A stretch of DNA of 37,541 nt from Meiothermus sp. Its GTDB lineage: Bacteria; Deinococcota; Deinococci; Deinococcales; Thermaceae. Under the pieces are notes generated by a model that did not search any database, was not told where the DNA came from, and worked only from the letters and a program-made list of their open reading frames with translations. Both the position numbers and the translations under genes were made by a program. Of the stretch, positions 8,985 to 13,572 are shown piece after piece (within the stretch, counting starts at the first letter, position 1; each line of letters opens with the position of its first letter). Location of the stretch: the NCBI RefSeq assembly GCF_025060375.1, contig NZ_JANXCG010000011.1:1-37541 (forward strand), read 5' to 3'.

Positions 8985-10148
8985 ATGATCTACCTGGACT
9001 ACGCCGCCACCACCCCGCTCGACCCCGAGGTCAGGGCCGGGATGGAGCAGGCGCTGGAAAACCATGGCAACCCCAGCTCGGTCCACGCCTTCGGAAGGAA
9101 GGCCCGGCAGCTCCTTGAGGAGGGGCGCGAGCGGCTCGCGGAGGCCCTGGGCTGCCGCCCCCGAGAGCTGATCCTCACCAGCGGCGGCAGCGAGGCCGAC
9201 GCCCTGGCCCTCTACGGGGTGGCCCTGGCCCGAGGCCGGGGGCACCTGGTGAGCACGCAGGTGGAGCACTCTGCGGTTTTGCTGGCCCTGCGGAACCTCG
9301 AGCGGCTGGGCTTCGCGGTGACCCTGCTGGCGCCCGACCGCTACGGCCTCATCTACCCCGAGCAGGTAGCCGAGGCCCTGCGCTCCGATACCCTGCTGGT
9401 CTCACTCATGACCGTGAACAACGAGCTGGGTACCCTTTACCCGGTCCGGGCGGTGGCCGAGCTCTGCCGGGCTCGGGGCGTCCTCTTCCACACGGACGCG
9501 GTGCAGGCCTTTGGCACGGTGCCCTGCCGGGTGGAGGAGCTGGGGGCCGACCTCATCTCCATCGCCGCCCACAAGTTCTACGGGCCCAAGGGGGCAGGGG
9601 CACTTTACGTGCGCAAGGGCGTGGAGCTCTTCCCCCTGGTGCCCGGAAAGCAGGAGCAGGGCTACCGGGGAGGCACCGAGAACCTCCCGGCGGTGTACGG
9701 AATGGGCCTGGCTGCCGAGAAAGCCGTGGCGGTGCTGCCCCAGGAGTCCAAGCGGCTGCTGGGGCTGCGGGAGCGCCTGGAAGGGCACCTCCTAGCCCTC
9801 CCGGGGGTTGAGCTCAACGGGCACCCCACCCTGCGCAGCCCCAAGCACGTCAACATCACCGCCAAAGGGGCCGACGGGGAGGGGCTCCTCCTCAACCTTG
9901 ACCTGCTGGGGGTGGCGGCCTCCGCCGGCTCGGCCTGCAGCAGCGGGAGCCTCGAGCCCTCGCACGTGCTCCTGGCCATCGGGCGCAGCCGGGAGGAGGC
10001 CAAGGCCTCGGTGCGCTTTAGCCTGGGCCGTTTCACCACCGAAGCCGAGGTAGACCAAGCCGCCCGGGCCTTCGCGGAAGCCCTAAGACGAAGCCGGGAT
10101 GACGGGTGGAGGGCTACCGAGGCGGCAGAAGGGCCGGGTTGGCGATAA
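8985..10148 (+). CDS. iscS: Cysteine desulfurase (IscS/NifS family)
   Basis: 387 residues, a PLP enzyme that removes sulfur from cysteine as a persulfide for Fe-S cluster and thio-cofactor synthesis. Seen in order: the N-terminal YLDYAATTPLDPEV, TSGGSEADALAL, HTDAVQAFG, the PLP lysine in SIAAHKFYGPKG (Lys near 197) and the catalytic Cys in GSACSSGSLEPS (near 318), followed by VRFSLGRFTTEAEVD. Its position 3 bp after the Rrf2 gene suggests co-transcription. No iscU, iscA or fdx follows. The last 35 bp overlap the 3' end of the convergent di-heme cytochrome gene, which ends at 10114; the extra C-terminal residues (DDGWRATEAAEGPGWR) are encoded there and are not conserved-looking. Confidence 0.94.
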   Translation: MIYLDYAATTPLDPEVRAGMEQALENHGNPSSVHAFGRKARQLLEEGRERLAEALGCRPRELILTSGGSEADALALYGVALARGRGHLVSTQVEHSAVLLALRNLERLGFAVTLLAPDRYGLIYPEQVAEALRSDTLLVSLMTVNNELGTLYPVRAVAELCRARGVLFHTDAVQAFGTVPCRVEELGADLISIAAHKFYGPKGAGALYVRKGVELFPLVPGKQEQGYRGGTENLPAVYGMGLAAEKAVAVLPQESKRLLGLRERLEGHLLALPGVELNGHPTLRSPKHVNITAKGADGEGLLLNLDLLGVAASAGSACSSGSLEPSHVLLAIGRSREEAKASVRFSLGRFTTEAEVDQAARAFAEALRRSRDDGWRATEAAEGPGWR

Positions 10149-11136
10149 AACGGGTATCGGTAAGGGACTCCAGAAAAGCCACCAGGTCGTCTACCTCGCG
10201 TTCGCTGAGGCCCAACGGCCGAATTAGGGGGTCGGCGTTCAGGTTGGGCTCCCCACCCCGGTTGTAGTGCTCCACCACCTCCCGAAGCGTCTTCCTGGAG
10301 CCGTCGTGCATGTAGGGCGCGGTGAGGGCCACGTTGCGCAGGGTGGGGGTCTTGAACTTACCCACGTCCTCGTCTTTTCCGGTAATCCGGGCCAGACCGA
10401 CATCCGGGTACACGGTGTAAAGCCCGGTGTTGCGGGGTTCATCGTCGGTAAACTCGGGGCCCACGTGGCAGTGAAAGCAGTCCCCCCTCTCGCTGAAGAA
10501 CAGCTCCATCCCCCTGCGGGCCGCCGGGGAGAGCGCGCTGTCGTCACCGGCCACAAAGCGGTCAAAGGGGCTGTCGTAGGAAAGGAGGGTCCGCTCAAAA
10601 GCAGCCAGGGCAAAGGCCACGTTCTTCAGGGTGGGGGGCTCCCCGAAAACCTCCTGGAAGGCTCGGGCGTACTCGGGAATGGACGAAAGCCGCTGGGCTA
10701 GAGCCTCGGGCTCCATGGCCATCTCGTGGTGAGCCGTAAGGGGGCCTACGGCCTGAAGCTCGAGCCGGGGCGAGCGCCCCTCCCAGAAAAGGCGCCTCCG
10801 AAAGGCTACGTTGGTGAGGGTAGGGGCGTTGCGGCTGCCCTTGCGGCCAAAAACCCCTACGCTCACCGGTTTACCCCCGTCGCTGAAGGCAAACTCGGGC
10901 CTATGGCAGCTTGCGCAGGCCACCCTGCCATCCAGGGAGAGCCTGGGGTCGTAGAAAAGGCGCCGGCCCAGCTCCACCTTGGCCGGGGTCTGGGGGTTGT
11001 CGGGCGGGATGGGAACGGCCCTGGCCGCCCTCAGGGCCCGAGGGTCCGGCGCCGGGGCGTGGGAGGGAGGCGCGGGGCGCTCCAGGCCCAGAAGGACCAG
11101 GGGCACCACCCACAAAAGCCATCGTCCGGCGTGCAT
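10114..11136 (-). CDS. Di-heme cytochrome c peroxidase/MauG family enzyme, MbnH-type
   Basis: 340 residues with an N-terminal membrane/signal segment (MHAGRWLLWVVPLVLLGLE) and a Pro-rich linker. Two c-heme motifs are visible, CASCH (74-78) and CFHCH (220-224), at the spacing of bacterial cytochrome c peroxidases and MauG. GRRLFYDPRLS before the first heme and TPTLRNVALTAPYMHDGS near 263-280 are also family marks. It lies 15 bp downstream of an MbnP-like gene in the same transcript, exactly the pairing of MbnP with MbnH, whose product oxidises a Trp of MbnP to kynurenine. I therefore favour an MbnH-like maturase over a simple peroxide scavenger. Its 3' end overlaps iscS by 35 bp. Confidence 0.85.
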   Translation of the reverse strand: MHAGRWLLWVVPLVLLGLERPAPPSHAPAPDPRALRAARAVPIPPDNPQTPAKVELGRRLFYDPRLSLDGRVACASCHRPEFAFSDGGKPVSVGVFGRKGSRNAPTLTNVAFRRRLFWEGRSPRLELQAVGPLTAHHEMAMEPEALAQRLSSIPEYARAFQEVFGEPPTLKNVAFALAAFERTLLSYDSPFDRFVAGDDSALSPAARRGMELFFSERGDCFHCHVGPEFTDDEPRNTGLYTVYPDVGLARITGKDEDVGKFKTPTLRNVALTAPYMHDGSRKTLREVVEHYNRGGEPNLNADPLIRPLGLSEREVDDLVAFLESLTDTRFIANPALLPPR

Positions 11137-11151
11137 CCGGGCCGCCTCCGG

Positions 11152-13131: not shown

Positions 13132-13134
13132 GGT

Positions 13135-13572
13135 TCAGGACCGGTAGACGAACACAAAGAACCCGACAACGCTGTGTCCATCTACCCCCAGATTTCTCCA
13201 CACCACCACATAGGGGCCGGGCTCGAGGTCGGGCCTCAGACGCAGGATTACATCCCGGCTAGTACGGGCGGTGGTCGCCACTCCCATGTCGACCCGCCGG
13301 CCCGCACTTCCACGGGAAGCGAGCACCTTGCGCACCAGCGGCTGGGCCAGCTGGCGCAGCCGGCTTGGATTTCCCCAGGCTTCCCGGGGCGCTTCAAGCG
13401 CGTAAACCCCAAAGGTGGAGAGCCGAACCTCAACGGGCTGGGTAAAGTAGACCACCACCGAGCTGGGTTTTTCCCTGAGGACGGCGTTGGCCGCTGGCAC
13501 AGAACGCTCATACTCGGCGTGGGCCAGCGCCATAACCGAGGAGAAAACCATCAAAAAGGCCAATCTAGCCAT
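13135..13572 (-). CDS. copC: CopC-like periplasmic copper-binding protein
   Basis: 145 residues with a signal peptide (MARLAFLMVFSSVMALA). Cleavage before His18 would give a mature N-terminus HAEYERSVPAANAVL, matching the CopC pattern in which the N-terminal His binds Cu(II). The other Cu(II) residues of the family are present in VDGHSVVGFF (Asp131 and His133), and the beta-sandwich core is seen in VVVYFTQPVEVRL. There is no Met-rich Cu(I) site. It lies 12 bp after the upstream gamma-carbonic-anhydrase-like gene and 3 bp before copD, so copper genes may be read from the long upstream transcript. Confidence 0.88.
   Translation of the reverse strand: MARLAFLMVFSSVMALAHAEYERSVPAANAVLREKPSSVVVYFTQPVEVRLSTFGVYALEAPREAWGNPSRLRQLAQPLVRKVLASRGSAGRRVDMGVATTARTSRDVILRLRPDLEPGPYVVVWRNLGVDGHSVVGFFVFVYRS

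Follow-up and report, generated by a model that had tools for sequence, protein, structure and literature searches.

A copC–copD–mbnP–mbnH gene cluster of Meiothermus with a candidate kynurenine copper site

In the published structure of the M. trichosporium OB3b MbnP protein, copper is reportedly coordinated by one His and one Met, with solvent as a further ligand, beside a kynurenine that derives from the first Trp of a WxW motif. Its gene is adjacent to that of the di-heme enzyme MbnH (structures 7l6g and 6e1c, respectively). A kynurenine site together with a di-heme peroxidase-like partner is also found in the copper-repressible MopE*/CorA and SACCP/CorB systems of Methylococcus and Methylomicrobium (PMC3912023). 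The locus described below shares with MopE*/CorA this combination of predicted copper protein and di-heme partner; however, MbnP and MopE/CorA show no marked sequence similarity (PMC3621798), and the MopE*/CorA ligands, two His and the kynurenine, are unlike those of the predicted MbnP site.

B. subtilis YcnJ, a CopC-CopD-YtkA fusion, supports oxidases under copper starvation, and its YtkA domain takes part in CuA-site assembly (PMC13344008). The Meiothermus locus likewise encodes CopC, CopD and a C-terminal extracytoplasmic domain, but CopC is a separate protein, the tail of CopD has no YtkA Pfam match and, unlike YcnJ, for which no MbnPH partner has been described, the locus includes an MbnPH pair. 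In CruR-headed operons a DUF2946-like ORF with a CxxC motif and a RAPP or RGPP end lies upstream of copper genes (PMC9426467, PMC12992588). CruR of B. pertussis (CxxC, RAPP) turns off a copper-uptake operon under copper-replete conditions (PMC9426467); among the arrest motifs tested, RGPP acts most strongly (PMC12992588). Such a leader stands at the locus in congeners of the Meiothermus species analysed here but is absent there in the species itself.

As early as 2013, MbnPH pairs were described that lie apart from methanobactin operons (PMC3621798). In 2022, CruR-headed operons were reported to include CopC and MbnPH-like genes, and a few CruR homologues were listed for Deinococcus (PMC9426467). 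Since MbnPH and CopC in copper operons have been published, the combination of CopC/CopD with MbnPH is less surprising than first thought. Plasmid 3 of D. radiodurans, a large plasmid (NZ_OV024759.1, L071), carries genes for MbnP, a di-heme protein, a hypothetical protein, CopC and CopD, in this order; its MbnP, named 'MbnP family protein' in RefSeq, is free of cysteine as in Meiothermus, but the gene order differs and CopD, at 249 aa, is too short for the C-terminal domain. The literature searched contained no description of the Meiothermus locus. Within that literature, and as far as shown, what is new is a matched subtype of cysteine-free MbnP and short-loop MbnH, its genus-wide linkage to CopC/CopD, and an RGPP-type leader in congeners.

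Gene order and predicted copper and haem sites

We analysed 37,541 nt of Meiothermus sp. (the window), in which four genes run head to tail on the minus strand and are transcribed in the order copC, copD, mbnP, mbnH (13572-10114):

13135..13572 (-): copC, 145 aa, periplasmic copper-binding protein with signal peptide; PF04234, 52 bits
11986..13131 (-): copD, 381 aa, membrane protein; PF05425, 53 bits against a cut-off of 32
11152..11895 (-): mbnP-like, 247 aa, secreted, zero cysteine; PF20243, 109.8 bits against a cut-off of 27
10114..11136 (-): mbnH-like di-heme enzyme, 340 aa; PF03150 (CCP_MauG), 202 bits, and Cytochrom_C, 36 bits

All four have Pfam matches, and the coordinates, strand, lengths and order given in a sequence-only reading of this DNA are correct. 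The intergenic gaps are 3 bp (copC/copD), 90 bp (copD/mbnP) and 15 bp (mbnP/mbnH). A gamma-carbonic-anhydrase-like (hexapeptide-repeat) gene lies 12 bp upstream of copC on the same strand, and a convergent cysteine-desulfurase-like gene overlaps the end of mbnH by 35 bp. M. luteus has the same locus, with 87% identity to Meiothermus sp. in MbnP and 91% in MbnH. The dN/dS ratios between the two (copC 0.22, copD 0.22, mbnP 0.12, mbnH 0.09) indicate that all four genes are selected as proteins, the mbnP/mbnH pair most strongly.

A further gene in the window encodes a secreted protein whose homologue lies directly 3' of mbnH in most relatives and which is displaced here by about 7 kb:

2857..3276 (+): 139-aa secreted protein with an HPFQGGGG and a CFC motif; no Pfam match

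This suggests an unrecognised fifth operon member that has moved in Meiothermus sp.

The features of CopC and CopD are as follows:

13519..13521 (-): CopC His18 codon, predicted mature N-terminal Cu ligand, next to the signal peptide
13174..13182 (-): CopC D131-G132-H133 codons, predicted Cu ligands
11986..12321 (-): C-terminal extracytoplasmic domain of CopD, about 105 aa, an Ig-like beta-sandwich in the predicted structure

CopC passes the PF04234 cut-off and has both the N-terminal His and the D-x-H ligands that mark the family, as the sequence-only reading had it; H18, D131 and H133 are invariant in an alignment of 19 CopC homologues. The role of His18 as a Cu ligand we take over from the CopC literature. 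In CopD, H131, H146 and W153 are invariant (17-sequence alignment); the protein passes the cut-off of PF05425 and falls under that of the equivalog NF033808 (81 against 195). Its tail, read earlier as an extra exported domain, is confidently modelled as an eight-stranded Ig-like sandwich (pLDDT 90.4) and occupies the position of the YtkA domain in YcnJ. It matches no Pfam family, YtkA included. In a fold search DUF4426, H. pylori CrdA and filamin domains tied at Z 9-10, so that an assignment as YtkA was not made; the similarity to CrdA, a copper protein (Z 9.8, 93 residues, 3.0 A), is a lead only, because unrelated Ig-like proteins score equally.

The predicted copper site of MbnP comprises:

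11548..11550 (-): His116 codon (NH motif), 31/31 sequences
11488..11502 (-): MYWAW, residues 132-136, with predicted Cu ligand Met132, predicted kynurenine Trp134 and second Trp136
11413..11415 (-): His161 codon (HxG motif), 31/31 sequences

In an alignment of 31 MbnPs that takes in the M. trichosporium OB3b protein, N115, H116, W134, W136, H161 and G163 are invariant (31/31) and M132 is kept in 29/31, so the NH, GMxWxW and HxG residues of the known copper/kynurenine site are all present. Trp134 corresponds to the Trp that is turned into kynurenine in characterised MbnP, and it lies in the MYWAW block named in the sequence-only reading. The protein retains candidates for each element of the M. 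trichosporium copper site: WxW, the upstream Met132, His116 and His161. A profile of 18 relatives searched against the PDB returned 7l6g as the sole significant match (82.9 bits, E 2.1e-22). The profile search proposed for the 247-residue product recovers the MbnP domain (PF20243), but the product scores 78.5 bits against TIGR04052, the four-Cys, WxW equivalog, under the cut-off of 140 (canonical members score 264-274), and with 0 Cys it lacks the four cysteines of that family. A structure prediction made from the window and M. luteus sequences only reached pLDDT 41 and was discarded.

In MbnH, the following features were located:

10903..10917 (-): first CXXCH haem motif, residues 74-78, invariant in 30 sequences
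10465..10479 (-): second CXXCH haem motif, residues 220-224, invariant in 30 sequences
10264..10266 (-): Tyr291 codon, aligned with the Tyr of MbnH/MauG-type enzymes, invariant in 30 sequences

W118 is likewise invariant in the 30 sequences. The region in which classical peroxidases have a Met holds Tyr291 and no Met, the haem ligand itself being unassignable from sequence. The description of the 340-residue product as a di-heme MauG/MbnH-type enzyme holds: a profile search against the PDB places MbnH first (6e1c, 361 bits), ahead of the best peroxidase (227) and of MauG chains (at most 171). TIGR04039, the MbnH equivalog, is the best-scoring family, yet at 291 bits the protein is under its cut-off of 363; the MauG family TIGR03791 gives 230, under a cut-off of 444, compared with 147-186 for canonical MbnHs. 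In the superfamily sense the protein is an MbnH, with two CXXCH motifs, a Tyr in the axial-ligand region and a partner MbnP gene.

Three plasmid genes labelled 'methanobactin export MATE transporter MbnM' (L074:5780-6949, L075:5874-7025 and L076:5812-7083) encode two CXXCH motifs and score 406-559 bits, above the MbnH cut-off; apparently these are misannotated MbnHs.

Subtypes, linkage and leaders across Deinococcota

Compared with the M. trichosporium pair, the Meiothermus genes are alike in being adjacent and in the conserved motifs of both products, including the two CXXCH and the invariant Trp and Tyr of MbnH. They differ in that MbnP has no cysteine, MbnH lacks a 12-residue loop after the Tyr291 region, both proteins fall under the TIGR04052/TIGR04039 cut-offs, and the neighbours are copC and copD, not methanobactin genes. 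These differences are not confined to the window. The other 22 MbnPs of the same branch likewise lack the cysteine set, three of them having one or two cysteines, and in their MbnH partners the segment from Tyr291 to position 310 is 20 residues long, against 24-32 in Cys-type pairs. Among Deinococcota, Cys-type pairs were found in two genomes (L025 and L028). In both the MbnP and the MbnH tree one fully supported branch separates the Cys-free subtype from the rest; pairwise distances in the two families correlate at r=0.97, to which shared ancestry contributes part. The single split therefore argues for two matched subtypes, not for repeated coevolution. One MbnP (L027:6499-7602) is extended at its C-terminus by about 120 aa; the added segment contains two cysteines and resembles a separate small protein encoded beside mbnP in L038 (2187-2618).

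MbnP was found in 16/17 other Meiothermus genomes, and not in the other listed genera of the family or in the control genome of Thermus composti. Among the 23 Deinococcota genomes with an MbnP gene, copC and/or copD adjoin mbnPH in 21: both in 18, copC only in two, and copD only in one, whose locus is at a contig end; in two neither is nearby. By a rough estimate, copC or copD would be expected within five genes of mbnP by chance in about 1% of genomes. The genes are arranged in at least four different orders. The CopC-CopD-MbnP-MbnH order is common to most Meiothermus and both Cys-type loci, and L026, L027, L038 and D. radiodurans deviate from it; some relatives have PCuAC or YcnI-type genes interspersed at the locus. 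Given the recurrence across the genus, the dN/dS values and the excess of 21/23 over about 1%, the arrangement is not due to chance, and the earlier claim that an MbnPH pair is joined to CopC/CopD extends well beyond this contig. In one congener (G033), mbnPH and copC-copC-copD are on different contigs (L045 and L065), copCD behind a carbonic-anhydrase-like gene with an RGPP leader and mbnPH beside a cysteine-desulfurase-like gene.

At the locus of 13 congeners, the genes are preceded by a small DUF2946-like ORF that has HCxxC and ends in ARGPP; its Pfam match is weak (18-20 bits, short of the cut-off, for the two Meiothermus ORFs tested). In Meiothermus, CruR/DUF2946-like ORFs with HCxxC and an RGPP end (L032:4880-5227, L034:4540-4926, L027:8575-8949, L026:7728-8102 and L065:4951-5436) precede copC-copD(-mbnPH) genes. 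A CruR-like query matches in 17/18 Meiothermus genomes, the genome of the window being without a match to that query. No CruR-like ORF was found within the window, where R[AG]PP ends, searched in all frames, occur only in frames without CxxC. The leader is lost at the locus in this species and in M. luteus, copC standing directly behind the carbonic-anhydrase-like gene.

Elsewhere, the genome encodes SCO, PCuAC, two COX2 genes and a separate nosD-nosL-PCuAC run. The last (contig C57, L068:2521-8964) consists of nosD, an ABC ATPase gene, two nosL-like genes, a permease-like gene and PCuAC, then a rhodanese-like gene and a CsoR-type repressor gene. It is preceded by a DUF2946-like ORF with HCPLC and an NRGPPWVG end (17.7 bits, below the cut-off), possibly a second CruR-type leader, in this case in the window's own genome.

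Proposed function and alternatives

Gene identities, their order, the conservation of site residues in both partners and the persistent linkage are established here. Our preferred reading, to which we give a probability of about 0.6, is that copC-copD-mbnP-mbnH form one transcriptional unit for copper acquisition and delivery without methanobactin, in which MbnH would oxidise Trp134 of MbnP. We infer co-transcription and, by analogy with M. trichosporium MbnP, CorA/MopE, YcnJ and CruR, the conversion of Trp to kynurenine, copper binding, a hand-over among CopC, CopD and MbnP, and the direction of flow. CopC would bind Cu(II) outside the membrane and hand it to CopD, which would import or relay it. 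Secreted MbnH would oxidise Trp134, the first Trp of MYWAW, to kynurenine, beside which Met132 and an invariant His (116 or 161) would complete a Cu(I) site. MbnP could then serve as a tight extracytoplasmic copper holder close to CopC/CopD, from which the respiratory oxidases would be supplied.

Independence from methanobactin, as claimed earlier, is supported by the lack of a match to PF05114 (MbnB) in the genome. The claim of a 'complete periplasmic copper delivery route' was too strong: the usual oxidase chaperones, SCO and PCuAC, are encoded elsewhere and, given these together with COX2 and the nos/PCuAC run, the four genes make up just one component of the copper-handling equipment. The function of this MbnP/MbnH may also differ from that of characterised pairs, since both proteins are below their equivalog cut-offs and MbnP is without the cysteines of characterised MbnPs. 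Experiments on any member of the Deinococcota were not found in the literature searched.

The main competing explanation is copper resistance, in which CopC and MbnP would sequester excess periplasmic copper, CopD would remove it and MbnH would mature MbnP. CopC and CopD were first described in copper resistance, the gene set would be identical, and sequence does not reveal which way copper flows. We nevertheless consider this reading unlikely: the CruR-like leaders of congeners resemble a system that copper turns off (PMC9426467), the CopC/CopD parts of YcnJ work for oxidases during starvation (PMC13344008), PCuAC/YcnI-type genes are interleaved in relatives, and copA/copB-type genes were not seen among the annotated neighbours. 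The leaders at the locus in congeners favour acquisition, and this regulatory argument rests on relatives, since the species of the window has lost the leader there.

We regard as less plausible still that the pair acts in copper sensing or redox protection, MbnH acting on peroxide and the oxidised site of MbnP reporting or buffering without delivery of copper. MbnH does belong to the peroxidase superfamily and the window contains a superoxide dismutase gene, but that gene lies on the opposite strand at a distance of about 7 kb, and MbnH has a fixed pairing with a WxW/His/Met protein and copper genes. There is very little room for the di-heme protein being an ordinary bacterial cytochrome c peroxidase unrelated to the neighbouring MbnP-like protein, in spite of its CCP_MauG domain and strong peroxidase matches in the PDB: MbnH is the best match, a Tyr takes the place of the peroxidase Met region, and MbnP is adjacent in the genomes examined, with correlated distances (r=0.97) and matching subtypes. 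A Cys-free MbnP that retains its fold while binding a different metal or no metal at all, with MbnH acting on another target, would fit the missing cysteines and the sub-equivalog score; it is hardly credible with copper-site residues invariant and mbnP flanked by copper genes.

The acquisition and delivery reading can be extended, tentatively and with more doubt than confidence: Cys-free MbnP and short-loop MbnH may form a functional subtype of their own, operating jointly with CopC/CopD as a single machine. CopC would supply Cu(II), the oxidative chemistry of MbnH would create a Cu(I) store in MbnP, and copper would reach the oxidases by way of CopD. In most relatives, a CruR-type arrest peptide would control how much of the machinery is made. 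If true, this would be a methanobactin-free import system of a thermophile that uses a self-made kynurenine copper site.

MbnPH pairs occur well beyond methanobactin producers. In Meiothermus, whose members are culturable thermophiles, the pair is linked to CopC/CopD genus-wide, and it is also present in the genetically tractable D. radiodurans, where genetics is routine. Being methanobactin-free, linked to CopC/CopD and of a smaller, Cys-free form, it offers a simple system for asking whether a kynurenine copper site serves copper acquisition and oxidase assembly.
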